A stretch of 64,000 nucleotides of DNA, from assembly GCF_031157375.1 (NCBI RefSeq), contig NZ_JAVIFV010000001.1, forward strand, positions 620,001 through 684,000, read 5' to 3'. Each line of letters begins with the position of its first letter. Within the stretch, counting starts at the first letter, position 1. The notes beneath the pieces are model-generated. The model searched no databases. It had not been told where the DNA came from and saw only the letters and a list, made by a program, of their open reading frames with translations. This DNA comes from Sphingosinicella sp. LHD-64 (lineage in GTDB: Bacteria > Pseudomonadota > Alphaproteobacteria > Sphingomonadales > Sphingomonadaceae). This document shows, one piece after another, positions 20,063 through 56,878 of this stretch. The position numbers were made by a program, and so were the translations under genes.

Positions 20063-21640
20063 TCAGGTCGTCGGGATTGCGGTGCACGACCCGCTGGTGC
20101 CGCCGAAGCTCACGTAGCCCGAATTGCAGGTCCAGCCCTGCCAGTTGGCGGTGAGATCGGCGGTGTCCCGGACCGCGCCGATGAAGGTCACCGCGGTGAA
20201 CGCATTCGGCCCGGCGGCGCTGCCGAACGTGTCCGTGTTGAACGGCAGCGGATCGGTCGGGAGCACGGCCGCCTCGTTCGCGCCATTGACGATGGTCGCG
20301 GTGAGTGTGGGCGTGAAGGCGTTGTTGTTGTTGTTCGTGCCGGTCCCGAAGATCGTCGCGATCGTCGCGGCCGGAACATTGGCTTCGTCGCGGAAGGCGG
20401 TCGGGCAGGCCAACTGGACCGACCTGAACACCGGCGGGCCGAGATCCTGCAGCGCCGTATCGGCCGCGCGGGTGGTGGTGCCGCCGGTCTCGTCGATGTC
20501 GAGGCAGTTCTGGGTGCCGACCACGACGCTGTTGAGCAGCGCATAATCGGCGCCGCCGCGGATCAGGATGGTGTTGCCGCCCTGGACGGTGCTGCGCTTG
20601 ATGAAGGTGCCGTTCGAGATTCGGGCATAGGTCCGCGGCAGCGCGTCCTCATTGCCTTCCGAGTCGATCTCGAAGATCGAGTCGCCGTTGGAAGCGTCCC
20701 GCTGGACCGCCACGGCGAATTGGATGGTGCCGCGGTAACCGACGTCGAGGTCGATCGAGTCGTCGTCCGAACCGGTGACGGCGAGATACTTCACGTTCTG
20801 GCGGCCGCCGAAGAATTCGACGCCGTCGTCCGAGCTGTTGTGCACCTGGACGTGATCGATCGTGGTGTTGGAGCCGACGCCGCCGGTGGTCAGGCCCTGC
20901 AGCTCGTTGCCCGGCGCGATGACGACACCGGAATAGCGGATCTGGACATACTGCACCGTGCCGCTGTTGTCGGCCGCAACCGCGCCGCCGTAGCGCGAAC
21001 TCGTCGTGCCCTCGATCACGTTCTGGCAGTTGACAGAGCCACCGGGCGTGCCGGTGACGTCGCAATTGCTGATCGGTGCGCGGCCGAGCAGGATGACGCC
21101 GCCCCACAGGCCCTGGCTGGTGTCGGTGGCCGTGCCGGTCAGATTCGACGAGTGGGTGAAGATGATCGGGTTCGCCGCCGTGCCGATCGCGTTGAGGCGC
21201 GAGCCGCGGTTGACGACGAGATAGCTGGTGTTGCCGGTGCCGAACAGCACCGTGCCGGGCTGGATGGTGAGCGTGACGGCCTGGCCGCCGGCAGCGGCGC
21301 CGTCACCGCCGACATCGGTGCCGACATTGACCGGGTTGCTGATCTGATAGGCGACGCCCGGCAGGTTCTGGATCGTCGTGTCCGTAGTGAAGCGCGCCGG
21401 CAGCTCGCAGGCGCGGCGGGCGGTGCCGATGAGGCCGCGATCGGTGGTGCCGGCCGGGCAGCTCGCAGCCGGGGTCCCCGGCGGCGTGGGGGTGGGTGTC
21501 GGAGTCGGCGTGGGGGTCGGCGTCGGAGTCGGCGTCGGGATGACGATCACACCATCACCGGGCGAGGCCACGTCGTCGGCGCCACAGGCGGCGAGCGGGA
21601 TCAGGGTGGTGACGAGAAGAAGGGTGCGAATCTTGGACAT
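20063..21640 (-). CDS. Lipoprotein with Thr-Pro linker and beta-helix-like domain
   Basis: The 525-residue lipoprotein has the lipobox IPLAAC, then a linker of Pro-Thr repeats (about 35-54). A long domain follows, rich in Gly, Asn, Asp and Thr, with turn-like repeats such as LFGTGNTSYLVVNRGSRL that suggest a right-handed beta-helix. No enzyme motif is visible. It lies between a TonB receptor and a GspC-like gene, next to phoB. The arrangement recalls the secreted, phosphate-starvation lipoprotein ElpS of Caulobacter, which leaves the cell by type II secretion. Homology to ElpS itself was not tested. A family of similar outer-membrane lipoproteins paired with TonB receptors is the other option. 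Confidence 0.82.
   Translation of the reverse strand: MSKIRTLLLVTTLIPLAACGADDVASPGDGVIVIPTPTPTPTPTPTPTPTPTPPGTPAASCPAGTTDRGLIGTARRACELPARFTTDTTIQNLPGVAYQISNPVNVGTDVGGDGAAAGGQAVTLTIQPGTVLFGTGNTSYLVVNRGSRLNAIGTAANPIIFTHSSNLTGTATDTSQGLWGGVILLGRAPISNCDVTGTPGGSVNCQNVIEGTTSSRYGGAVAADNSGTVQYVQIRYSGVVIAPGNELQGLTTGGVGSNTTIDHVQVHNSSDDGVEFFGGRQNVKYLAVTGSDDDSIDLDVGYRGTIQFAVAVQRDASNGDSIFEIDSEGNEDALPRTYARISNGTFIKRSTVQGGNTILIRGGADYALLNSVVVGTQNCLDIDETGGTTTRAADTALQDLGPPVFRSVQLACPTAFRDEANVPAATIATIFGTGTNNNNNAFTPTLTATIVNGANEAAVLPTDPLPFNTDTFGSAAGPNAFTAVTFIGAVRDTADLTANWQGWTCNSGYVSFGGTSGSCTAIPTT
21483..21540. repeat. Imperfect hexamer repeat coding for (Thr-Pro)n
   Basis: Units such as GGCGTC, GGAGTC, GGCGTG and GGGGTC alternate along the plus strand. 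On the coding strand this reads as a Thr-Pro linker in the lipoprotein. Such tracts can change length by slippage in whole-codon steps, so linker length may differ among strains. Confidence 0.85.
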
Positions 21641-21828
21641 GGAAACCCCCTTGGTGGAAACAAAACAGGCGACTCACGGGAAACGAGCTGGCCTCGAAGG
21701 CGCAGCTAGGGGGCTAATGTGATGTTTATATTACATCTATCGAAGTAATAACTTCGCAATTTCTTTGACTTTTATTGGAAACCAATATGACTTACTTTTA
21801 AAGTCATTCAGAAACATAAATGTCACAA
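21641..21828. promoter_or_regulatory. AT-rich control region with four dyads, upstream of the lipoprotein
   Basis: This gap is far richer in A and T than its surroundings. It holds GATGT-n7-ACATC (21721-21737), CGAAGT-AATA-ACTTCG (21741-21756), ATTGG-AAA-CCAAT (21774-21786) and ATGACTT-n7-AAGTCAT (21787-21807). The motif TGACTT also recurs as a direct repeat 22 bases apart (21766 and 21788). It should contain the promoter of the lipoprotein/TonB receptor pair. The dyads could be regulator sites or the tail of the GspC-like transcript. No standard PHO box is seen here. Confidence 0.55.
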
Positions 21829-22542
21829 TCAGCGAGACTGGGCACCTTCGGCGGCAAGGCTCATCCGCTGGCCGCCGCGCTCGACCTCGAAGACGACCCG
21901 ATCCGAATTGGCGATCGTCCAGGCGAGATCCATCAGCCGTTCCTGATCGAACTCGCTGTCGTTGACGCGCAGGACCACGTCACCGGCGCGCAGGCCGGCA
22001 CGCTGGAGTACCGGCAGAGTCTGGCCGGCCTTGAGGGCATGGCTGGTGACCCGGGTACCGACGCGGCGCGGCTCGAAGGCGAGCAGATAGCGCTGGACAT
22101 CGGCGCGGACCGCGGCTTCGTCGACCGCGCCGGGCGCCGCGGACGGCGCTGCCGCCGGCGCCGTCGCCGTCACGCCGGTGAAATCGAGCCGGAACCCGCC
22201 GGCCGCCGATTTGAGCAGGGCATGATCGACCCGCACGGCCTCCAGTCGCAAGCCGGGCAGCACATCGCGGCCGAGGCGAATCAGCCGCTGACGGCCGTCG
22301 GCGCCACCGATGATCGCGCCGGCGCCGGTAACGCCGAACAGACGGAGCCCTTCGGGAGAGGAGACTGGCGCGAGGGGCGGAGCCGGAGCCGACGGGGGCG
22401 TGGGTACAGCAGCCGGGGCGGGCGGCGGTGGCGTGGGCGCAGGCGGCGGTTCGTCTCCGCCGGCCAGCAGCAGATAGGCCAGGACCAGCACAAGCAGCCC
22501 GGCAATCCCTCCAAGAATCAGGAGGCGTCGTTCAGCCGGCAT
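21829..22542 (-). CDS. GspC-like type II secretion protein
   Basis: The product is about 237 residues. A membrane anchor (about 10-28) is followed by a Pro/Ala-rich periplasmic linker. Next comes a small beta domain beginning EGLRLFGVTGAGAIIGG, like the HR domain of GspC, and then a C-terminal PDZ-like domain with LRAGDVVLRVND. GspC couples the inner-membrane platform to the secretin and takes part in substrate choice. The ATG at 22542 overlaps the phoB stop by 11 bases, so the two are cotranscribed. No other type II secretion genes are in the window, so this may be a dedicated adaptor using a system encoded elsewhere. Confidence 0.8.
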   Translation of the reverse strand: MPAERRLLILGGIAGLLVLVLAYLLLAGGDEPPPAPTPPPPAPAAVPTPPSAPAPPLAPVSSPEGLRLFGVTGAGAIIGGADGRQRLIRLGRDVLPGLRLEAVRVDHALLKSAAGGFRLDFTGVTATAPAAAPSAAPGAVDEAAVRADVQRYLLAFEPRRVGTRVTSHALKAGQTLPVLQRAGLRAGDVVLRVNDSEFDQERLMDLAWTIANSDRVVFEVERGGQRMSLAAEGAQSR

Positions 22543-23227
22543 CGTCGTCGAGCGCATAGCCGGCCGACCGCACCGTGCGGATCAGCTCCGGCCTGCCCTC
22601 GATATTGATCGCCTGCCTCAGGCGGCGGATATGGACGTCGACGGTGCGCGGCTCGATGTCGCGCTCGCGGCCCCAGACAGCGTCGAGCAGCCGCTCGCGC
22701 GAGAAGACGCGGGCCGGATGTTCGAGGAAGTGGCGCAGCAGCCGGAATTCGGTCGGCCCGAGCGCGATCGCACGACCGGCGCGGCGGACGCGGTGGCGCA
22801 CGAGGTCCATTTCGAGATCGCCGAGCCGGAGCTGATCGCCGGCGAGCGCCGGACGGACGCGGCGCAGCACGGCCCGGACCCGGGCGATCAGCTCGCGCGG
22901 GGAAAAGGGCTTGGTGACATAGTCGTCGGCGCCGGTCTCGAGGCCGCGGACCCGGTCCGCCTCCTCGCCGCGGCCGGTGAGCATGATGATCGGCACGTTG
23001 GCGGTGCCCGGCGACCGGCGCAGCCTGCGGCAGACCTCGATCCCGGAAATTCCCTCGATCATCCAGTCGAGCAGGATGATGTCCGGCGTGCTCTCGGTCG
23101 CGAGCGTCATCGCCTCGTCGCCGTCGGGCGTGTGATCGACCTCGAAATCCTCGCGCTGAAAATGCCATTGCAGGAGATCGGCGAGCGCGGGGTCGTCCTC
23201 GACCAGGAGGAGGCGCGGCTTCACCAC
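22532..23227 (-). CDS. phoB: Phosphate-regulon response regulator PhoB type
   Basis: The 231-residue OmpR/PhoB-class regulator has a receiver domain with phospho-acceptor D54 in ILLDWMIEG and the conserved Lys in YVTKPFSPREL. The C-terminal winged helix (about 130-228) contains LGPTEFRLLRHFLEHP and RTVDVHIRRLR, close to PhoB. No phoR, pst or phoU gene is nearby; instead it heads a transcript with the GspC-like gene. The PHO box about 120 bases upstream supports both the name and autoregulation. Confidence 0.88.
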   Translation of the reverse strand: MVKPRLLLVEDDPALADLLQWHFQREDFEVDHTPDGDEAMTLATESTPDIILLDWMIEGISGIEVCRRLRRSPGTANVPIIMLTGRGEEADRVRGLETGADDYVTKPFSPRELIARVRAVLRRVRPALAGDQLRLGDLEMDLVRHRVRRAGRAIALGPTEFRLLRHFLEHPARVFSRERLLDAVWGRERDIEPRTVDVHIRRLRQAINIEGRPELIRTVRSAGYALDDDAG

Positions 23228-23347
23228 GCCGGCCCGGTTGCGGACAAGGGCTGGCGGGCCTCCGACGACGCGATCACAAATCTGGCCACCTTCTCTCCTC
23301 CCGCGATTGGGTGCGCGGTCTGGCTAGCCCGATTTGAGGCAATATCC

Positions 23348-23376
23348 GTGACAGAAGAATGACAGTTCAATGACGG
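23348..23376 (-). promoter_or_regulatory. PHO box, three half-sites
   Basis: Read on the minus strand the site is CCGTCAT-TGAA-CTGTCAT-TCTT-CTGTCAC. That is three direct heptamers with an exact 11-base period, matching the PhoB consensus CTGTCAT-n4-CTGTCAT. It lies 121 bases upstream of phoB and 125 bases before the divergent monooxygenase gene, oriented toward phoB. It should activate phoB and the GspC-like gene under phosphate limitation. Confidence 0.85.
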
Positions 23377-23501
23377 CCGCGAAAACGGAGCGGCCGCCCC
23401 ACTCCTCGCAAATGGCCCCGCTTCGGACAGGCTTCGCGCAAATCGGCTTGACGTCGGCCGTTGCGGAGATAGTTTAGCCTTAAAGCATCTGGGAGGCGAA
23501 C

Positions 23502-25789
<2,288 letters not shown>

Positions 25790-42185: not shown

Positions 42186-42734
42186 ATGAAAACCACAAGA
42201 AAACTGACCCGCCGGTCCTTTCTGGGACGTGTGGCGGGGGGTGCGATCGCGGGGGGCGCGGCACTGACCATTCTCGGCGGACGTGCCGAGGCGTTCCAGG
42301 TGACCGACAATGATACCGGCCCGAATGCGGACCCGGTCGGCCGTGGGCGCGGCCGCTCCGGAATCACCGACAACGACACTGGTCCCAACGCCGATCCGGC
42401 GGGCAACGGCCGCGGCCGGCGCGGCGGGCGTTCGGGAATCACCGACAATGACACGGGTCCCAATGCCGATCCGGCCGGTGACGGCCGTGGCCGGCGCGGA
42501 CGCAGCGGCATCACCGACAACGACACCGGTCGCTATGCCGATCCCGCCGGCAATGGGCGCGGCGGCCGGCGCGGGCGCGGGCGGACCGGCCTGACCGACG
42601 GCGATTCCGGCGGCAACGCGGATCCGGCGGGCAATGGGCGCGGCCGGCGCGGCAATCGCTGCAGTGGCCTCACCGACAGCGACAGCGGCAGTTGGGCCGA
42701 TCCGGCGCGTTGCGGACGCGGTCGACACAATTAG
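42186..42734 (+). CDS. Tat-exported protein of six Asp/Arg-Gly repeats
   Basis: The 182-residue protein starts with a classic Tat signal (LTRRSFLGRVAGGAIAGGAA). The mature part is almost wholly six repeats beginning at residues 40, 61, 86, 110, 137 and 163. The unit is TDNDTGPNADPAGNGRGRRG followed by RSGI or RTGL. Each has an acidic D-x-D-x-G element, like a calcium loop, and then a basic Gly-Arg element. The first repeats are nearly identical and the last two more diverged, with single Cys at 159 and 176 that could pair. The use of Tat suggests folding or cofactor binding before export. I do not know a function. A terminator follows. Confidence 0.85.
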   Translation: MKTTRKLTRRSFLGRVAGGAIAGGAALTILGGRAEAFQVTDNDTGPNADPVGRGRGRSGITDNDTGPNADPAGNGRGRRGGRSGITDNDTGPNADPAGDGRGRRGRSGITDNDTGRYADPAGNGRGGRRGRGRTGLTDGDSGGNADPAGNGRGRRGNRCSGLTDSDSGSWADPARCGRGRHN

Positions 42735-45806: not shown

Positions 45807-45914
45807 TCGTATCCACATTGACGCGCTCGGGTCGCGAGCGTTTACCCCGTCTTCAGACCCATGTGATTGTTCGCCGTTTCGTGCGAGAAACAGTGAGTGG
45901 GGAGTCGGCCGCTT

Positions 45915-46436
45915 ATGGCCACAGCAACCGGCATGGCTGGAGATGAGACGCCGCCGTTCGAGCGCATCGTCGCCGAACACGGCGCACTCATCACGCGCAT
46001 CGCCATGTCCTATGAAGCCGACCCCGCCCTGCGCGAAGACCTGGTCCAGCAGATCCTCCTCGCCGTCTGGCAGGCGCTGCCGAGCTTTCGCGCCGACGCC
46101 TCGCTGAAGACCTTCATCGCGCGGATCGCCCAGAATCGGGCTATTTCCTTTGTTGCCAAGCAAGTACGCCAGCTGCCGACTGCGGAAATTCCTGAAAAAC
46201 TCGAAGCCGGTGACCCAGATCCGGAACAAAGCGCAATTGACGCAAGCGAGCGGCGCGCGTTGATTGAAGCAACACGTCGCCTTCCAGTACCACAACGTGA
46301 AGTTATCGTTTTGGTTCTCGAAGGTTTCAGCTATGCGGAAATCGCCGAAATGTTGGGAATCGCGCCCAATGCTTTGGCGTTGAGGCTTTCACGGGCGAAG
46401 GCGGCGCTCAAATCTATGCTGGAGAGGGGGCGATGA
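45915..46436 (+). CDS. ECF-type RNA polymerase sigma factor
   Basis: The product is about 173 residues. Sigma region 2 contains ALREDLVQQILLAVWQALPSFR with TFIARIAQNRAISF. Region 4 contains LPVPQREVIVLVLEGFSYAEIAEMLGI-like helices and the recognition helix with RLSRAKAALKSML. Starts at 45897 or 45933 are possible. Its second half uses noticeably more A/T-rich codons than neighbouring genes. It overlaps the next gene by 4 bases, the usual form for a sigma/anti-sigma pair. Confidence 0.9.
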   Translation: MATATGMAGDETPPFERIVAEHGALITRIAMSYEADPALREDLVQQILLAVWQALPSFRADASLKTFIARIAQNRAISFVAKQVRQLPTAEIPEKLEAGDPDPEQSAIDASERRALIEATRRLPVPQREVIVLVLEGFSYAEIAEMLGIAPNALALRLSRAKAALKSMLERGR

Positions 46437-47053
46437 CAGATTTCGATCTCGAACGCCTCGGCGACATGTGGCGCCAGGATCCCGATCCGGCGGAGATCGA
46501 AAAGCTCCGCCGGACCGCCGACCGGGTCGCACGACATGCGCGACGCGCCCAGTTTGCCGATGCGGCATTCGCCATCCTCGTTTCGATCGTCGTGCTGATA
46601 CTCGCCATTTCCAATCCGAGGCCGGCGACCTTGCTGATCGGCGGCGCTGCCATCGCGCTGATGCTGGGAAGCAGCATTCGCCAACGCAAATTGCGTGCGC
46701 TCGAGCTAAAATCGCTCACAGGCACGGCCGAGCAGATGCTCGACCAATCCATCGCCCGCGCCCATGCGACGCTGAAACGGGTCCGTACGGGACTGCTCGG
46801 CGGCTTGCCGGGCGTGATCCTGGGCCTGGCCTTTGGCGCCGCCCTCGAGAGCGGCTCGGTCGACGGTATTCTCGCGGACATCGGGGAGAGGCTCGCGGGG
46901 CCGCATTCGGTGGCCGTCCATCTGGTGATCATCGTCGCCGCGCTTTACATCTATCTTTTCGTCATGATGCGGCGCAGCCGGCGCGAGCTCAAAAGCCTGA
47001 CCGTCTTGCGTGACGCGTATCGGCGAGAAGATGGAGAGCCCGCGTCCGACTGA
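46433..47053 (+). CDS. Membrane protein, likely partner of the sigma factor
   Basis: The 206-residue protein has a charged helical N-terminus (MTDFDLERLGDMWRQDPDP), two close membrane segments at about 42-60 and 64-78, an amphipathic middle and further hydrophobic helices at about 120-140 and 155-178. No HxxxCxxC zinc motif is present, so it is not a ZAS-type anti-sigma factor. Position and coupling suggest that it restrains or senses for the sigma factor. This is inference. Confidence 0.6.
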   Translation: MTDFDLERLGDMWRQDPDPAEIEKLRRTADRVARHARRAQFADAAFAILVSIVVLILAISNPRPATLLIGGAAIALMLGSSIRQRKLRALELKSLTGTAEQMLDQSIARAHATLKRVRTGLLGGLPGVILGLAFGAALESGSVDGILADIGERLAGPHSVAVHLVIIVAALYIYLFVMMRRSRRELKSLTVLRDAYRREDGEPASD

Positions 47054-47104
47054 TCAAATGGAATTCCGTTTAGCAAAGTATAAATCAATCGGTGCGACAA
47101 GCCA

Positions 47105-47129
47105 CCTCCCTAAAAGCTAAGATGGGAGG
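47105..47129 (+). promoter_or_regulatory. Hairpin that can cover the ribosome site of the peptide gene
   Basis: CCTCCC at 47105-47110 is the exact complement of the ribosome site GGGAGG at 47124-47129, with a 13-base loop. The ATG follows 5 bases after the site. Folding would hide the site, so translation of the peptide could be switched by temperature, a protein or a small RNA. Confidence 0.5.
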
Positions 47130-47134
47130 CAAAA

Positions 47135-47290
47135 ATGGCCAAAGAATTTGAAACGATCCGGTTCGAAGTGGAAGCTCTTCCGGAGCTCTGCACACAGGTG
47201 GCTGTCGCGGGCGCGGCAAAGCAGCAAGAGGTTGGCGGTGCGGCTTGTCTCGGCGTTGCAGCCGGCCTTGCCATCTACATAGCAGCTTGA
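47135..47290 (+). CDS. 51-residue peptide, possible precursor peptide
   Basis: The peptide begins MAKEFETIRFEVEALPELC, a charged, helix-prone and leader-like part. A GG pair at 34-35 and then a strongly hydrophobic, Ala-rich tail AACLGVAAGLAIYIAA complete it. Cys residues are at 19 and 38. GGGAGG stands 5 bases before the ATG, the best ribosome site in the neighbourhood. Codon use is less GC-rich than that of the flanking genes. The leader plus GG plus short tail resembles precursors of ribosomal peptides or bacteriocins, but the tail lacks Ser/Thr and acidic residues, so lanthipeptide or lasso chemistry is unlikely. A small membrane peptide is the alternative. Confidence 0.65.
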   Translation: MAKEFETIRFEVEALPELCTQVAVAGAAKQQEVGGAACLGVAAGLAIYIAA

Positions 47291-47298
47291 AGCAAATC

Positions 47299-47347
47299 TG
47301 CCGGCGGCACGTACGGAGGCGCTCTGCCCCCGTGGTGGTCGCCGGCA
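47299..47347 (+). terminator. Stem-loop between peptide gene and downstream genes
   Basis: TGCCGGCG and CGCCGGCA form a perfect 8-bp stem around a 33-base loop, 9 bases after the peptide stop. No T-run follows. It could be a partial terminator or processing site that keeps peptide mRNA more abundant than the downstream genes. Confidence 0.4.
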
Positions 47348-47371
47348 AGTCAAGGCCGGAGCGTCATACGC

Positions 47372-48385
47372 GTGACCAGTGAAGCCAATCGAACTGGAGC
47401 GCCCGCGCCCGCGGATCGCGCAAAGTCGCTGGCCTGGCTCGCAGACCGCGAAGCCCAGCGCCAGACGCAACAGACAGTCGACGCGTTCGCAACCGACTGG
47501 CGAAGCGGCGGTTTGCATCGACGTTTGGACGCGGCCTTCGCGACGGCGCCCGATCGGAGCGCGGAGGTGACCGCCGAGGCCGTCCGATCGCTACTTGAGG
47601 GTGATTGGTTGGATAGTTTGATCGTCGGTCTCGCCGACATGCTCAGGAGCGATCCGTTTGCGGAACCGCCCTTCCCCGCGATCTACAGCGACATCCATAA
47701 AGGACTCATGGTCTACGAGAGTCCGGACGTTTCGCTTGCGATCGGCGCCATCAACATCGCCCAGCTTGCCGCCAAGAAGAGCGCGCACCGCGGCGCAACC
47801 TCGATCGGCTTCACCGGCCGGATGTCGGTCCTCAAGTTCGTCGATGCGGGCGATGCGCTGCTGTCGTTCTGGGAAGCGCCGCCGATCGGCGCCGGCTTCT
47901 CCGCGACATCGGCCGGCCGCTGCGTCCGGACCGGCGAGCGCCGGCTGGCCGATGGCGACGTGCTCGTCGTCGACGGGCGCCGGCAGGCCTATGTGATCGA
48001 ACAGGCCCGCGCGAACATCCTGCTGCTTCAGGCGGAGATCGCGCGCGATCAGGCGCCGGTGGGCGTCGAATATGATTCCGGGAGCCTGTCCTATGTCGGC
48101 TGCAATGCGAATGACGACGGCGCATCGCGCATCCAGATGATGGCGACGTTGCTGCGCAAGCTCGATTGCAGCGCGGCCTTCCCCGTCATGGCCGCGCTTC
48201 TCGACCATCCGGACTTCTTCGTGCGCTGGCATGTGATGCGCGAGCTGATCGGCATCGATGCCCGCGCCGCGCTGCCTCACCTGCGCACCATGGCTGCACT
48301 CGACCCGCATGACGATGTTCGCGCGACGGCGGGCGCGACGCTGGCGCATCTCGAGCAGGTCGTCGGCGACCGGAAGGCCGCCTGA
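47372..48385 (+). CDS. Unknown protein with C-terminal HEAT-like helices (A)
   Basis: The 337-residue protein has a helical N-terminus and a beta-rich middle (about 110-220) with FTGRMSVLKFVDAGDALLSF and LADGDVLVVDGRRQAYVIEQ. The C-terminal helical hairpins (about 260-335) resemble HEAT repeats: VMAALLDHPDFFVRWHVMREL and LRTMAALDPHDDVRATAGA. The middle looks like a cupin-type barrel lacking the metal His cluster. The GTG at 47372 follows GGAG by ten bases. Its stop overlaps the next gene by 1 base. I do not recognise the family; it may bind or present the upstream peptide. Confidence 0.65.
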   Translation: MTSEANRTGAPAPADRAKSLAWLADREAQRQTQQTVDAFATDWRSGGLHRRLDAAFATAPDRSAEVTAEAVRSLLEGDWLDSLIVGLADMLRSDPFAEPPFPAIYSDIHKGLMVYESPDVSLAIGAINIAQLAAKKSAHRGATSIGFTGRMSVLKFVDAGDALLSFWEAPPIGAGFSATSAGRCVRTGERRLADGDVLVVDGRRQAYVIEQARANILLLQAEIARDQAPVGVEYDSGSLSYVGCNANDDGASRIQMMATLLRKLDCSAAFPVMAALLDHPDFFVRWHVMRELIGIDARAALPHLRTMAALDPHDDVRATAGATLAHLEQVVGDRKAA

Positions 48386-49305
48386 TGCCCCGGATCATCG
48401 ATTGCCCGGAAACGGCCCCTCTCGAGCTCGGCGATGTCATCGCCGCACTCAACGATCCGGCCTTCGATCCCGCTGACGAGGACAGCTTCGCGGCGGCCGG
48501 GGTGCTGCTCAAGGGGCTGGCTGCCAATCGACAGTTCCTCGCCGACATCGCGGTCGCCGAGCTCAAGGACCGCTGCGTGCGTCAGACCCGGGAGAACAAG
48601 TACAGCTCGCAGGTCATCATGCTGCACCGCGCCAGCGAGAAATATTTCATCCGCGCCAATTTCTGGCCGAGCCCGCGCGACAGCCTGTTCAAGGCCAGCG
48701 GCACCTCGCCCTTCTTCTACCACGTGCCGCACGACCACAATTTCTCGTTCCTGACCGTCGGCTATCTGGGACCGGGCTATTGGAGCGACTATTACGAATA
48801 TGACCGGGAGGGCGTGGTCGGCGTTCCCGGCGAGAAGGTGAACCTGCGCTTCGTCGAAAAGGCGAAGCTCGATCTGGGCAAGGTCATGCTCTACCGCGCC
48901 CATCGCGACGTGCACGACCAGCTCCCCGCCGACGAGATGTCGATCTCGATCAACATCATGGAGGCCTCGCCGCGCCAGCCGTTCCTCGACCAGTACCGCT
49001 TCGACGTGAAACGATGCGAGATCGCCGAGATCCTGAACCGGACGGCGACGGAAGCCCTGCTGGCGATCGCCGCCACCCAGACGGGCGGCAATGCCCGCGA
49101 CCTGGTCGAAAGCTTCGCGGCGCACCATCCGTCCGAGCGCATCCGGTTCGCCGCCCTGCGCGAGCTCGCTGCGGCCGCGCCCGGCGTCGATGAGGGTCTC
49201 GCCGTGCTGGATCGCGGCGCGGCCTCGCCGAGCCCTTTCATCGCGGCGATGAGCGTGCGGGAGATTGCCCGCGTCCAGGCCGGCCGCGGCTGGCTCGAGC
49301 GCTAG
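48385..49305 (+). CDS. Unknown cupin-like protein with C-terminal HEAT-like helices (B)
   Basis: The 306-residue protein has a beta-rich middle (about 75-195) with HVPHDHNFSFLTVGYLG (His 113, 116, 118) and MLYRAHRDVHDQLP (His 173, 177). The spacing is like the two metal motifs of cupin-fold oxygenases. Helical pairs at about 220-300, such as HPSERIRFAALREL, resemble HEAT repeats. It is coupled to protein A by a one-base overlap (TGATG). A metal-dependent modification of the 51-residue peptide or of another partner is a reasonable guess, not shown. The 3' end overlaps the convergent SGNH hydrolase by 4 bases. Confidence 0.65.
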   Translation: MPRIIDCPETAPLELGDVIAALNDPAFDPADEDSFAAAGVLLKGLAANRQFLADIAVAELKDRCVRQTRENKYSSQVIMLHRASEKYFIRANFWPSPRDSLFKASGTSPFFYHVPHDHNFSFLTVGYLGPGYWSDYYEYDREGVVGVPGEKVNLRFVEKAKLDLGKVMLYRAHRDVHDQLPADEMSISINIMEASPRQPFLDQYRFDVKRCEIAEILNRTATEALLAIAATQTGGNARDLVESFAAHHPSERIRFAALRELAAAAPGVDEGLAVLDRGAASPSPFIAAMSVREIARVQAGRGWLER

Positions 49306-52072: not shown

Positions 52073-55000
52073 TCAGGCGAAGATCACGTCGGCGCTGGTC
52101 AGCAGCACCCCGGTCTGGATCGTGAAGTCGGCGGCGCCGTCACCGTCGACATCGCCGGCCAGATAGGAGGATCCGCCGGACGTGTAGGCGCGCAGCTGAC
52201 CCGCCGCGCCGCTGAACGCCGCGCCGCCGATCCAGGCGAAGCCGTCATGGCCGCCGCCCTCGATCGCGTCGAGGCCGCTGACGTCGACCTTGTCCTGGCC
52301 GCGGCGGAAATCGGCGATCCGGTCGTCGCCGCCGATCTCGCTGACGCGGAAGACGTCGTTGCCGTTGCCGCCGGTCAGCAGATCATCGCCGGCGCCGCCG
52401 TCGATCAGGTCGTTGCCATTGCCGCCGCTGAGCGTGTCGGCGCCCTCCCCGCCGAACAGCCAGTCATTGCCGTTGCCACCGTCGAGGACGTCGTTGCCGA
52501 GCCCGCCGAGCAGGATGTCGTCGTCATTGCCGCCGCTGATCCAGTCGTTGCCGCGCCCGCCGTCGATCACGTCGGCGCCGTTGCCGCCCGAAAGCGTATC
52601 GGCGTCGCCAAAGCCGTAGAGCACGTCGCTGCCATTTCCGCCCGACAAGGTGTCGGCGCCCGCCGTCCCGTCGATCTGGTCGTTGCCGTTGCCCCCATTG
52701 CGGGTCACGCCCGGGTCGCTGGCGCCCGAGACGGTGACCTCGACCGTCGCGGTATCGCTGCCGCCGCGGCCATCGCTGACCGTGTAGGCAAAGCGGTCGA
52801 CCAACGTCTCGCCGGCACCGAGCTCGTTGATGACCTCACCGTTCGCGACATAGCGCAACGTGCCGGTGGCCGGATCGAAGACGAGGCTGCCGAGCGTGCC
52901 GGTCGCGTCCACACCGACGATCGCCAGCGTGTCACCGGCATCCGGATCGCTGTCATTGCCGAGCAGCAGGCCCCAGAGGTTGTCGCTGGTGGCGTCCTCC
53001 GCCACCGCAATCGCATCGTCCCTCGCGACCGGCGCGGCATTCGGCGCCGGGATGAAGAAGCGGCCGAGGACGGGATCGTGATCGGTGGCGCGCGGCGTGC
53101 CGCTGGCCTGCTCGGCGTTGATGTGAACCGCGTCGAACTGGGCGCCGGAGGCCAGCCCGCCGGTCACGACGATATGGTCGAGCGCCTGCAGGTTGCCCTC
53201 GAACAGGTAGGAGTAGCGCTCCGCCTCCGGCAGCAGCCGGTGCAGGTCGGTCATCACCCCGCCCGCCTCGAGCGCGCCGATCGCGTCCTCGAACCAGAAG
53301 CCGTTGAAGTCGCCGAGCACGCCGAGTTTCAGCGACGGATCGGTCGCGAGCGCGTCGTTGACATAGGCGCGGACTGCATTGGCCTGGGCGGTGCGCTGGG
53401 CATCGCCCGCATCGGCCGGCGGCTGGGTCGAACCGAACAACGGATCGCTGCCGAGGCGCGAGGTGGAATGGACGTTGATCAGAGTCACCGTCTCGCCGTT
53501 GAAGGTGAAGTCGGCGACAAGCGGCCGGCGGCTGCCGTTGAACGCCGGCCCCTCGATCAGCTCGGCGCTGCCCTCGACATAGTCGACCCGGTCGGCATTG
53601 AAGAGGAAGCCATTGCGGATGTTGCCGCCCGGCTCGCCCCCGGTCGAGCCCGCGCTCGTCGGCGCGATCTCGACATAGACGTAATTGGGGCCGCCGAGCG
53701 CCGCGATCGCGTCGATCAGCAGCTGCGCGGTCTCGGTGCCCGACAGCGGATCGCTGCCGTTGAGTCCGTTGGCGTCCTGGACTTCCTGCAGGCCGATGAT
53801 GTCCGGCGCGGCAAGGCTGTAGACGATGTCGCTGGCGAGCAGGTTGAACTTGGCCGGGCCGTCGCCGGGATCGAGATTCTCGACATTGTAGCTGGCGACG
53901 GTGAGATGGTTCGCGTCGCCGGCCAGGTTGGTGGTCTCGCGCGAAACGGTCACGTCCTCGGTCACCGTCACCGGGCCGGTGACCAGCACCTCGTAGCTGT
54001 TGAAGCTGTAGGAGACGATGCCGGTCACGTCGGACAGCCGGTCGCCCTGGCTGTGCGCCGGATCATAGCCGGGGAACAGCGCCGGGGTCTGGTCGATCTG
54101 GATCCGCTCCGGGTTGAAGTCGCCGTCCGAGACGGTGATGCCGCCACGGTCGTTGACTCCGGAGGCGCCGGCACCGCCCGAGGCGACGACGAAGGTCTCG
54201 CCGAAGCTATTGGTCTCGGCGACGACCAGCGGCTGATCGATGGTGACCCGCATGCCTTCAAGCGATTCGTAGAAGTCGATGCCGTCGCTCGCCGGATCGT
54301 AGCTGGCGAAGCCGTCGTCATCGATCACCTGGCTCGGCGGCAGTACGCCGCCCGCGCCGATCACCGTCGCCGCCGGCAGCGCATTGCCGGTCGATTGCAG
54401 CGTCACCGCTGCCGCGGTCACCTGCGTCACGGTGAGGTTGGTGGTGTCGCCGCCCGGCAGGAACTCGGCGACTGTGCCGTTCACCGACACCGCGTCGCCG
54501 ATCAGCACGCCCGGCGCTGCGCCGGTGAAAACGAACAGGGCGTCGGACGTGCGGGCGTTGCCGTCGCCGGTCGCGTCCTGGAGGTAGAAGCCATTCGTGG
54601 CGACCGCAGTGACAATGCCCCCGGTGGTCACCACTTGGCCCTCATAGCCAGAGCGATGGCCCTCGCCCTGGATCTCGTAGGTCTTGAGGGTGATCGGGTC
54701 GTCGTTGACGATCGTGCCCGTCGCCGCGCCGTCGATGATGGCGATATTGCCCTGCGGATTCGCGAGCAGGAGGTTGAAGGTTTCGTTGCCCTCGCCGACC
54801 GTGTCGCCGGCGATGCCGATGACGATCTGCGCGCTGGTGTCGCCGACCGCGAAAATAACCGTGCCGGTCAGCGGCTGGCCCGGCGCAAGGTCGGCGACGT
54901 CGGCGCTGCCGTCGAGGTTGAGGACATAGTCGACGGCGGCGGCCTGGTCGGTACCGCCGGCGCGGCGCACGGTAAAGACGAGCTGCTGCACGCCGCCGTC

Positions 55001-56557
55001 GCCCTCGACGACGCTGGCATCGGCGACGCTGATCAGGCCGGTGCCGGTCGGGCTGATGAAGTCCTGGCCGGCATTGACCCCGCCGAAGCTGTCGTCGTTC
55101 GAGGCGATCCAGGTGAAGTCCTCGTAGCTCGCGCCGGTGCCGACGAGTTGCAGCGACGAGCCGATCGGGTCGCTGCCGCCCTGGGAGACGCCGATGTCCT
55201 GGCTGGTGAGGCCCGCGGCCGGGCCGTTGGCGGCGGTGATCGTCCCCTCGATCGACAGGAACTGGACGACATTGCCTTCGGGATCGACCAGCGCGAAGCC
55301 GTCGAACGCGCCGTTCTGGATGCCGTTGGCCGGATAGGAGAAGCTGATCGTCCCATAGCCGTCGTCCTGGTCGGGGACGATGCCGCTCAGGGCCCTGGTG
55401 TTGTAGCTTACGGCGGCGCCGGGATCGTTGCTGCCGTTGTAGAGCACGATCGTCCAGCCGGCGAGGTCGGTGCCGGCAGACGCGGCGATCTCGATCGCCT
55501 CGCCCGCATCGGTGCCGGCATTGTCGTAATGGATCTCGTTGATAAAGACGCCGCCGCCGGGCGTCGGCGGGGTGTCGTCGTTGAGGATCGTGCCGGTCGC
55601 CTCGGCGTCGCCGAGCACCGCGCCGCCGGTCGGCGCGGAGAGCGTGATCGTGAACGTCTCGTCCGGCTCGAAATCGGCGTCGTCGGCGATCTCGATGGCG
55701 ATCGTCCTTTCCGTCTCGCCGTCGGCGAAGGTGATGGTGCCCGTGAACGGCGGATCGCTCTCGATGTCGGACGCGTCGGCGCTGCCCGTAAAGTTGAGCG
55801 TCCAGGTCGCCGAAACCTCGCCGGTATCACCGCCGCTGCGGGTCACGGTGAAGGTGAGCGCGCCGGCATCGTCTTCCACAATGCTCGCATCCGCGATCGA
55901 CAGCACGCCGGGATCGCCGCCCGACAGAGGGTCGCTGCTGACCACAATGTCGTCGACGCCGACCCATTCGTCATTGCCGCCGGCATTGGTCGTCATGATC
56001 CGGATCTGCAGCGTCGCGGCATCGTTCGCGCCGGGCGGCAGGATCACGTCGAGCGCGGTCACCAGCGTCGCGCCCGGGCCGGTCACGTCGGCGAAATAGC
56101 CGCCGGGGACGTTGATCCACTCCGCGCCCTCGGCGGTGCGGTACTGGACGTTGACCTGCTGCACCGCGTCCTCGCCGGCGGTGGCGTCGATGTCGCGCAG
56201 GTTCGCCTGCAGGCGGATGTCGGAGCGGCCGCTCGCGTCCATGTAGAGGACGAGGCTGGGCGCATCGGCGGTGCCGGAGCCCTGCAGCGCGATCGTCGGA
56301 TTGGCGATCTGGAATTCGGCGATGCCGCCATTGTTGATCGTCGTGTTCGTCTGGTTGGCGATCACGTCGAGCGCGCCGAGCGCCGGCTGGGTGAGCGTGC
56401 GCGGATCGACATTGCTGGGCGATCCTGAATTGATGTCGCCGAGATAGCCCATGATGCTGGCGACGGCCGCCCATTGGTCATTGGCGGTGATCAGACCGGT
56501 GTCCGACCAGTCCTGCGCGAAATTGCCCGAAGCCAGCGAAAAATAGGCGTTGCTCAT
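52073..56557 (-). CDS. Large secreted nuclease with Calx-beta, LTD, EEP and RTX parts
   Basis: The protein is about 1494 residues and has no N-terminal signal. From the N-terminus there is a beta domain (to about 215), a Calx-beta domain (about 220-325), a lamin-tail domain (starting GGGVFINEIHYDNAGTD) and a second Calx-beta domain. An OB-like region follows. The endonuclease/exonuclease/phosphatase core has ASYNVENLDPGDG, IIGLQEVQD, GDFNGFWFED and the TDHDPVLGRF end. A cadherin-like domain and RTX calcium repeats (GGNGND, GGAGDD) complete it. The C-terminus, with the RTX array, fits type I secretion. It matches ExeM/NucH-type extracellular DNases. The ATG at 56557 has GGGGGGAAT upstream. Confidence 0.9.
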   Translation of the reverse strand: MSNAYFSLASGNFAQDWSDTGLITANDQWAAVASIMGYLGDINSGSPSNVDPRTLTQPALGALDVIANQTNTTINNGGIAEFQIANPTIALQGSGTADAPSLVLYMDASGRSDIRLQANLRDIDATAGEDAVQQVNVQYRTAEGAEWINVPGGYFADVTGPGATLVTALDVILPPGANDAATLQIRIMTTNAGGNDEWVGVDDIVVSSDPLSGGDPGVLSIADASIVEDDAGALTFTVTRSGGDTGEVSATWTLNFTGSADASDIESDPPFTGTITFADGETERTIAIEIADDADFEPDETFTITLSAPTGGAVLGDAEATGTILNDDTPPTPGGGVFINEIHYDNAGTDAGEAIEIAASAGTDLAGWTIVLYNGSNDPGAAVSYNTRALSGIVPDQDDGYGTISFSYPANGIQNGAFDGFALVDPEGNVVQFLSIEGTITAANGPAAGLTSQDIGVSQGGSDPIGSSLQLVGTGASYEDFTWIASNDDSFGGVNAGQDFISPTGTGLISVADASVVEGDGGVQQLVFTVRRAGGTDQAAAVDYVLNLDGSADVADLAPGQPLTGTVIFAVGDTSAQIVIGIAGDTVGEGNETFNLLLANPQGNIAIIDGAATGTIVNDDPITLKTYEIQGEGHRSGYEGQVVTTGGIVTAVATNGFYLQDATGDGNARTSDALFVFTGAAPGVLIGDAVSVNGTVAEFLPGGDTTNLTVTQVTAAAVTLQSTGNALPAATVIGAGGVLPPSQVIDDDGFASYDPASDGIDFYESLEGMRVTIDQPLVVAETNSFGETFVVASGGAGASGVNDRGGITVSDGDFNPERIQIDQTPALFPGYDPAHSQGDRLSDVTGIVSYSFNSYEVLVTGPVTVTEDVTVSRETTNLAGDANHLTVASYNVENLDPGDGPAKFNLLASDIVYSLAAPDIIGLQEVQDANGLNGSDPLSGTETAQLLIDAIAALGGPNYVYVEIAPTSAGSTGGEPGGNIRNGFLFNADRVDYVEGSAELIEGPAFNGSRRPLVADFTFNGETVTLINVHSTSRLGSDPLFGSTQPPADAGDAQRTAQANAVRAYVNDALATDPSLKLGVLGDFNGFWFEDAIGALEAGGVMTDLHRLLPEAERYSYLFEGNLQALDHIVVTGGLASGAQFDAVHINAEQASGTPRATDHDPVLGRFFIPAPNAAPVARDDAIAVAEDATSDNLWGLLLGNDSDPDAGDTLAIVGVDATGTLGSLVFDPATGTLRYVANGEVINELGAGETLVDRFAYTVSDGRGGSDTATVEVTVSGASDPGVTRNGGNGNDQIDGTAGADTLSGGNGSDVLYGFGDADTLSGGNGADVIDGGRGNDWISGGNDDDILLGGLGNDVLDGGNGNDWLFGGEGADTLSGGNGNDLIDGGAGDDLLTGGNGNDVFRVSEIGGDDRIADFRRGQDKVDVSGLDAIEGGGHDGFAWIGGAAFSGAAGQLRAYTSGGSSYLAGDVDGDGAADFTIQTGVLLTSADVIFA

Positions 56558-56878
56558 CGATTCCCCCCGATAGATCCGAAAATGCGAGGCCCGGCGGATG
56601 CCGGACATCGGGCCAGCATGCCGATTCGGCCGCCGCTGGGGAAGAGGCTTAGCGGGCCCGCATGACTGCCGGGCGATAGGAGGGTTACCGCGGCATTAAC
56701 GATTTGTGGCGCTTCGGCGACCTTCGTTCATCGTGCGAATCGCCCGGTTCGTCGCTGCGCGGCGGCTTCGACGACGACTCCGCGGCCTTCGCCGCGCGGC
56801 GCCTGCATCCCCCGCCGAAACGACTAGCGATCGCTTCCGAAGACGCGAGGCCGGGCCCCCGTCTCAGGGAGAAAAGGG
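56558..56878. other. 321-base gap, divergent nuclease and L,D-transpeptidase genes
   Basis: The gap holds the promoters of both flanking genes. An AT-richer patch with GCATTAACGATTTG near 56690-56705 is the best candidate for promoter elements. GGGAGAAAAGG directly before 56879 is the ribosome site of the transpeptidase. No gene or repeat of the families in this window was seen. Confidence 0.5.

Follow-up and report, generated by a model that had tools for sequence, protein, structure and literature searches.

A conserved peptide gene linked to a pair of predicted thiol-dioxygenase-fold cupins in sphingomonads: a candidate peptide-maturation system

Introduction

Cysteine dioxygenase (CDO) is one of the cupin thiol dioxygenases, a group that also includes enzymes for 3-mercaptopropionate and mercaptosuccinate, and its outer shell contains a Ser-His-Tyr triad. 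The MNIO/DUF692 proteins are non-haem iron enzymes of systems for ribosomally synthesized and post-translationally modified peptides (RiPPs), and they adopt a TIM barrel fold. HEAT proteins of the phycobilisome lyase/NblB type are a further relevant group, and we know of no cupin domain in them. According to the available part of a study on Bacillus, the YknWXYZ system, which is made up of Yip1, MacA, MacB and FtsX components, protects against the peptide toxin SDP (PMC4887032), and Yip1 proteins are noted in clusters of leaderless and circular bacteriocins in the available part of a second report (PMC11580447). Here, we describe a trio of genes, termed P, A and B, from Sphingosinicella sp. 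LHD-64. It lies in a stretch of 64,000 nucleotides (contig NZ_JAVIFV010000001.1, positions 620,001 to 684,000 of the forward strand), which is referred to as the window and whose numbering is used throughout.

The three genes form a conserved unit, which is found mostly in sphingomonads and in a few distant relatives. We consider it probable that the trio is the central part of a peptide-maturation system not described before and is a candidate for a new RiPP class, rather than a proven RiPP, in which B, helped by A, would oxidize the peptide. An open-licence literature search returned nothing on such a system, which is weak evidence of absence, and the available parts of PMC11002830, PMC12710340 and PMC9716278 hold nothing relevant to it.

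A conserved trio of genes

The gene P (47135..47290, + strand) encodes a peptide of 51 amino acids whose first half is conserved, whereas the second is variable and hydrophobic and contains VGGAAC. It is followed by A (47372..48385, + strand), which starts with GTG and encodes a protein of 337 amino acids, predicted to be a ligand-free thiol-dioxygenase-fold cupin with C-terminal HEAT helices and the probable partner of B. The third gene, B (48385..49305, + strand), encodes a putative Fe(II) oxygenase of 306 amino acids, a predicted thiol-dioxygenase-fold cupin with three His ligands (H116, H118 and H177) and HEAT-like helices. The layout read from the letters alone in the original prediction was recovered: the 51-residue peptide frame is present, it has a good ribosome site (GGGAGG, 47124-47129), and A and B overlap by a single base, position 48385 being the last base of the stop codon of A and the first base of the start codon of B. 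The same genome carries a second complete copy of the trio with its own A, a B that is 57% identical and a peptide of 44 amino acids, MKRKIDLAAIPELKTSVAIHGSVKQQEVGGPICLGIAISLFIAL.

B relatives are encoded in 288 stretches of a named-genome collection, and the counts of loci given here rest on the best 80 of these 288. In a second sample, which consists of 60 related genomes and includes the genome of the window, B is present at 24 places in 18 genomes. A profile of P yielded 22 strong matches (E 2e-10 or better) in 17 of the 60 genomes, and all 22 are located 991-1151 bases upstream of a B gene. Since some of these genomes contributed to the profile, the recovery itself was expected, and the added information is the absence of any orphan P among the strong matches. 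Three further matches (E 0.004-0.007) fall into frames of 259-669 amino acids in genomes lacking B and look like chance. Two B places of this sample are without P; one is at a contig edge (G024:C76), and in the other, G014 (L129), no peptide was seen by eye either.

An iterated P profile was run on the region between 500 bases upstream and 120 bases downstream of each A start, with a threshold of E 0.01. It detected a peptide in front of 115 of the 133 A copies, some of which were counted twice as their loci are present in both collections, and in 1 of 133 stretches drawn at random from these loci. Among the 80 named loci, 73 have P by profile. Of the remaining seven, two end at contig edges (L035, L067), four contain a peptide recognizable by eye (L047, L070, L076, L094; for example, MTNIVPPLAIEDIPDLSDLISPFELSDGGALDISLMDVVIAIIDQP behind AGGAGG), and none was recognized in L063. 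Short peptides with a hydrophobic end were identified by eye only in L105, L123, L125 and L126 and in front of the second A gene of L075. A adjoins B in all 80 loci, although it is partial or fragmented in a few. The trio is kept together in sphingomonad genomes, and A and B were not found to be widespread in the absence of a peptide gene, an outcome that would have spoken against the original prediction. Within the phylum, 15 of 398 genomes have B, 13 of which belong to the family of the window's genome and two to others. The 80 loci comprise one from Tahibacter (Gammaproteobacteria), five with broad labels only (L047, L061, L087, L095, L104) and otherwise named genera that we take to be members of the sphingomonad family.

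The peptide family

P had no match in Pfam, NCBIfam, PADLOC or PHROGs. Its frame is conserved at the protein level: the median ratio of nonsynonymous to synonymous substitution rates (dN/dS) is 0.23 over 71 pairs, which are not independent of each other, and 72 pairs with at least 70% identity differ by 1370 third-position versus 994 first- and second-position changes. The profile control, the co-occurrence with B and the dN/dS value rule out that P is a chance frame.

Across 86 distinct P-A-B triads, P has a length of 41-60 amino acids with a median of 51. The most conserved columns (G 97%, L 92%, P 87%, D 80%) lie in the first half, which follows roughly the pattern [IL]-D-[LI]-x-x-[LI]-P-x-L-x-T-x-x-G-x-x-G-S and is constant across genera; in the second half, column conservation is at most 60%, yet the hydrophobic character is kept throughout. 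In several loci, two or three differing peptides precede a single A-B pair. This arrangement and the split into a conserved and a variable half give P the appearance of a precursor, and a short precursor gene of this kind beside enzyme genes is one feature of RiPP biosynthetic systems.

The Gly-Gly pair pointed out in the original prediction is present in the P of the window, but it is not a family feature, since [EQT]V[GA]G occurs in 25 of 99 distinct peptides. Cys is present in 30 of the 86 peptides. The combination of Gly-Gly and Cys seen in the window is shared by a subset, and similar stretches are found in two of the three peptides of L190 (TVGGVCV) and in one Alteromonas peptide (TVGAACF). 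P co-varies with A (partial r 0.29 for A given B) and with B (0.35 for B given A; permutation p 0.001 each, 86 triads). As these values are about equal and do not separate A from B, A is not singled out as the binder, and the idea that it is the sole co-varying partner of P was discarded.

Protein B

The AlphaFold2 model of B has a mean pLDDT of 95.7, and its top Foldseek matches in the PDB are mercaptosuccinate dioxygenase (8vni, E 1.3e-7), a Pseudomonas thiol dioxygenase (4tlf) and cysteine dioxygenases. The TM-scores of about 0.6 by target and about 0.4 by query are those expected if only the cupin part matched; the C-terminal helices (residues 221-305) come after the strands. In an alignment of 112 sequences, from which exact duplicates were removed and in which the B of the window is possibly included twice, H116, H118, D175, H177, Q179 and N190 are invariant, and 108 of 110 sequences obey a stricter spacing pattern, the exceptions being the distant L123 and L125. 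The residue Q76 is near-invariant (59/60) and falls on the substrate-binding Gln of the Gln-type thiol dioxygenases. A weak profile alignment with 13 CDO sequences spans 166 columns; in it, HDH and D-x-H of B each coincide with their CDO counterparts, and S-x-N of B faces S-x-H of CDO. By contrast, single-sequence hhalign runs of two CDOs versus A and B gave nothing. The classical cupin motif carries a Glu after its HxH. Since this Glu is absent in B, the metal that B would bind is likely held by a three-histidine site.

Taken together, the model and the invariant residues support a metal-enzyme fold for B, predicted to be a cupin of the three-histidine thiol-dioxygenase type with added HEAT-like helices, and they back the metal-enzyme character originally proposed. 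The residues named at that time fared differently: of HxxHxH, the HxH (H116, H118) is invariant but H113 is not, and within HxxxH, invariance applies to H177, with H173 present in 51 of 60 sequences. HEAT helices had been assigned to both downstream proteins; those of A are recognized by Pfam HEAT_2, and those of B are visible in the model, with HEAT_2 matching 7 of 60 B relatives but not the B of the window. B had no match in Pfam, NCBIfam, PADLOC or PHROGs, and CDO_I (PF05995) matched none of 60 B members at E 0.01. In the family libraries scanned, neither A nor B was assigned to an unrelated known family.

Shorter B relatives, encoded by open frames of 239-254 amino acids, are found in three genomes outside the class of the window's genome. 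The short relatives (L181, L182, L183, L184, L185), some of which adjoin an A relative, may represent an ancestral form that lacks the full HEAT part.

Protein A

The structure model of A (pLDDT 93.9) also has mercaptosuccinate dioxygenase as its best fold match (E 2.3e-7), and the profiles of A and B align over 146 columns (probability 92, E 6e-7). The C-terminal end matches Pfam HEAT_2 (E 2e-8), with weak sub-threshold matches elsewhere. In a very weak alignment (probability 3.8%), A has x-F-[ST] opposite the HDH of CDO, and the position of the third His is mostly occupied by L, F or Y, with His in 4 of 70 sequences. By model and profile, A is a remote paralogue of B with the same predicted fold and without the metal ligands, a kinship that went unnoticed in the original prediction; the reading of A as a binder made of HEAT repeats only was rejected on these grounds. 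A is less conserved than B, with a mean column identity of 32% versus 53%. Its HEAT part weakly matches NblB of NCBIfam in 6 of 70 members (best E 0.0003), and one weak match of unknown function (E 0.006) was obtained for A in the defence and phage libraries, with none for P or B. A ligand-free protein beside a catalytic B is the natural reading of this pair, which may form an A-B heteromer.

Genomic neighbourhoods

In the window, the trio is preceded by a gene for an extracytoplasmic function (ECF) sigma factor (45897..46436, + strand), a possible regulator, and by a gene for a membrane protein without an assigned family (46433..47053, + strand), which occupies the position of an anti-sigma factor and has related genes in 8 of 80 loci. 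An ECF sigma factor gene precedes the trio in 13 of the 80 loci. In another 13 of 80 loci, a winged-helix OmpR-type gene is located directly downstream; the scanned example matches Trans_reg_C and not Response_reg. In L094 (10904-11551) and its counterparts in the 13 loci, this gene directly follows B and perhaps has a degenerate receiver. A third setting has neither regulator, and the trio is then often found among genes for argininosuccinate lyase, pyridoxal-phosphate-dependent decarboxylase and thioesterase. A membrane protein of the AI-2E family is encoded on the other strand in 24 of 80 loci and was not counted as part of the system.

The window was described as having no adjacent transporter, and none adjoins the trio among the frames inspected up to 54500; exporters do accompany the trio in some other loci. 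Four loci (L029, L030, L036, L054) contain P-A-B, a sub-threshold MarR gene, one or two more peptides, A2-B2, and genes for an ABC exporter and for HlyD-type and MacB-type proteins, each function having been scanned in one of the four and extended to the others by clustering. ABC or HlyD-type genes are also found downstream in L026, L073 and L075, and the ABC genes of L028, L037 and L039 were left out of the count, being encoded on the other strand. The three most informative loci come from outside the Alphaproteobacteria. On a plasmid of Alteromonas stellipolaris (L105), genes for Yip1, HlyD_D23, a MacB-type ATPase and MacB_PCD/FtsX precede two peptides, A, B, an ABC ATPase and a membrane permease identified by eye. 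In Tahibacter soli (L073), P, A and B are followed by genes for an ABC ATPase (by eye), an ABC-2 permease, Yip1-like and HlyD-like proteins (by eye), an ABC ATPase and an FtsX-like permease (by eye). L190, from another class, encodes a Yip1-like protein (by eye), HlyD_D23, an ABC ATPase, MacB_PCD/FtsX, three peptides, A, B and an ABC ATPase, and the frame after the latter had no match when scanned. In these three loci, the trio appears to be part of a cluster for making and exporting peptides and for protecting the producer against them.

In L190 (1271-3513, - strand), genes for a histidine-kinase-like and a LytTR-like response-regulator protein, recognized by eye, diverge from the exporter and peptide genes; such a pair divergent to a peptide cluster is a layout of bacteriocin regulation. 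L105 contains a gene of the IcmW family (230-712, E 2.4e-12) and, near the trio, a gene of about 14 kb on the other strand (21345-24897). In L126 (6706-11193), P-A-B is located between yidC and a gene for an EngB-like GTPase, an unusual core-gene position. Two further frames of the window were noted by eye: the first (42186-42734, + strand) has a signal resembling that of twin-arginine translocation, followed by repeats of the type T-D-N-D-T-G-P-N-A-D-P-A-G, and the second (52073-56608, - strand) has 1511 amino acids with Calx-beta-like, nuclease-like and RTX-like repeats and is likely a secreted nuclease.

Control elements and RNA structures

A putative promoter-like element, TTAGCAAAGTATAAA-N8-TGCGA (47070..47097, + strand), precedes P. 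Elements resembling TTAGCRAAGTNTMAA-N6-9-TGCGA are common to seven window-type loci when near matches are included, and the strict pattern occurs once in the window's own genome; a k-mer search revealed no promoter motif common to all loci. In the window (47070-47129) and in L003-L008, the TTAGCAAAGTATAAA-type element is followed by a predicted stem in which the ribosome site pairs with an upstream C-rich arm. The hairpin predicted in the window (47105..47129, + strand) pairs GGGAGG (47124-47129) with CCUCCC (47105-47110) and has a z-score of -1.95, with 9 of 200 shuffles equally good; similar complementary arms at the P ribosome site of related loci were seen by eye. The stem-loop noted originally behind P does exist (47298..47349, + strand), but it lacks a T run, is only mildly stronger than shuffled sequences (z -1.75, 14 of 200 equally good) and was not called by terminator prediction.

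Loci with MxLP-type peptides have a strong 5' hairpin in 29 of 50 cases, and in 27 of these the hairpin stops 13-23 bases short of the start codon; for hairpins and positioned hairpins, respectively, the means over 200 mononucleotide shuffles are 12.6 and 2.4 and the maxima 21 and 9. Of 49 other loci, 16 have a strong 5' hairpin, which ends at this distance in five. In the MxLP loci (e.g., L103, L085, L065, L068), the hairpin is GC-rich and varies in sequence at a fixed distance to the start codon, and it resembles a conserved element of RNA-based control. No Rfam family matched the 5' hairpin stretches of seven loci and part of the window.

Proposed role of the trio

In the proposed maturation system, P would be translated as a precursor whose conserved first half serves as a recognition part and docks on A/B. 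B would use iron and O2 to change residues in the hydrophobic half of P, and A, having lost the metal ligands, would act as partner of B and probably help to hold the peptide. The first half would then be removed and the variable second half released, and some lineages would export this short hydrophobic product through dedicated ABC systems, whereas others would use general exporters or not export it. It could act as a signal or as a membrane-active toxin. In the window, the neighbouring ECF sigma factor is the probable switch of the system. The linked unit, the selection on P and the predicted metal-enzyme fold of B support the original prediction in part; that B modifies the peptide and that A binds it is inferred here, as it was there.

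Several observations weigh against this proposal. The sequence similarity of B to CDO is weak (hhalign P 0.0034, probability 9.5%). Cys is missing from 56 of 86 peptides, so that a single shared thiol reaction cannot account for all of them and thiol oxidation was rejected as the general reaction, and the variable half has no residue conserved in all peptides. A dedicated exporter is absent from most of the 80 loci, many of which lie among core genes, unlike typical antimicrobial clusters, and the distant L123 and L126 show only unrelated genes among the neighbours scanned. No protease was found by Pfam, and neither Pfam nor NCBIfam matches of A and B include a RiPP recognition element, for which no specific search was run.

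The lack of a modifiable residue common to all peptides and of an exporter in most sphingomonad loci keeps alive an unlikely alternative. In this reading, A and B make up a sensor to which P belongs as a small partner or ligand; O2, a thiol or a metal would be sensed by B, and the neighbouring ECF sigma factor or OmpR-like regulator would be under the control of the complex. The regulator genes upstream or downstream of the trio, the many exporter-free loci among core genes and the stronger conservation of the first half of P are in line with such a sensor. However, the export clusters and the loci in which a single A-B pair follows two or three dissimilar peptides suit a precursor better, and a subunit would not be expected to vary so strongly in its second half.

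The clusters with Yip1-MacA-MacB-FtsX composition bear on a second alternative, which we regard as quite improbable: P could be an unmodified hydrophobic toxin or signal, with A and B forming a pair that provides immunity or acts as a carrier, their cupins serving for binding and not for catalysis. The hydrophobic second half of P would fit this role, as would the likeness to YknWXYZ, a protector against the unmodified SDP peptide in the available part of the study cited above (PMC4887032). However, the three His ligands of B are fully invariant together with D175, Q179 and N190, and this complete invariance points to catalysis. Immunity proteins rarely retain a full metal site. That P is a leader frame without a functional product, whose translation controls A and B, is strongly disfavoured, since the dN/dS of P, the constancy of its motif across genera and the extra peptide genes speak against it, although the hairpin on the P ribosome site and the stem-loop between P and A would suit such a role.

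The conserved peptide family, which is unannotated, adjoins B relatives in 73 of the best 80 of 288 places. If B is a peptide oxygenase, this would be a large unmined peptide family with a new fold for peptide maturation, and a test case for a small-molecule dioxygenase turned on a peptide with a dead twin at its side. If the trio is a sensor instead, the association of a small protein with a cupin pair and with ECF or OmpR-like regulators throughout a bacterial order would still be new.

Comparison with known systems

None of the known RiPP enzyme classes looked for (LanM, YcaO, radical SAM, ATP-grasp) is among the Pfam matches of the trio or of the scanned neighbours, in agreement with the original prediction. 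The HEAT part does not place A among the phycobilisome lyase/NblB proteins, as the A of the window scores 16 bits, far below the cut-off of 300. A double-glycine-leader bacteriocin was likewise rejected: a Gly-Gly leader end is not general, and no C39 peptidase is among the Pfam matches of the scanned exporters. As in the YknWXYZ/SDP system and in leaderless and circular bacteriocin clusters, to the extent covered by the available parts of the sources (PMC4887032, PMC11580447), a Yip1 protein and a MacA/MacB/FtsX-type exporter can adjoin a gene for a short hydrophobic peptide; unlike in the trio, these clusters have no cupin pair there, and most trio loci have no such exporter. The trio resembles MNIO/DUF692 RiPP systems in having a short, half-conserved and half-variable precursor beside a putative iron enzyme and a partner, sometimes with exporters, but the predicted fold of B is a cupin.

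The closest relatives by fold are the cupin thiol dioxygenases, including CDO_I, which both A and B resemble (top PDB matches 8vni and 4tlf). The predicted B has the cupin fold with three His ligands known from CDO; these are invariant, and its HDH and DxH are in register with those of CDO in a weak profile alignment. B has no Pfam match above the cut-off, however, and S-x-N replaces the S-x-H of CDO, so that the Ser-His-Tyr triad is not found (S188, N190 and a variable residue 192: M, L, V or I). Together with the HEAT part and the weak profile score, these differences led us to reject B as an ordinary cysteine dioxygenase. We give an even chance to a more specific version of the maturation proposal, namely, a new RiPP class with paired thiol-dioxygenase-fold cupins, one catalytic and one ligand-free and both with HEAT helices, that would oxidize short hydrophobic peptides by an O2 chemistry new to peptides. 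The enzyme would derive from an oxygenase of small-molecule thiols. In an ancestral form, its target may have been the Cys that follows Val-Gly-Gly or Val-Gly-Ala in window-type, Alteromonas and L190 peptides, with Cys-free cores becoming substrates in later lineages. The trio differs from CDO in its extra HEAT helices, its ligand-free twin A and its linked peptide gene.

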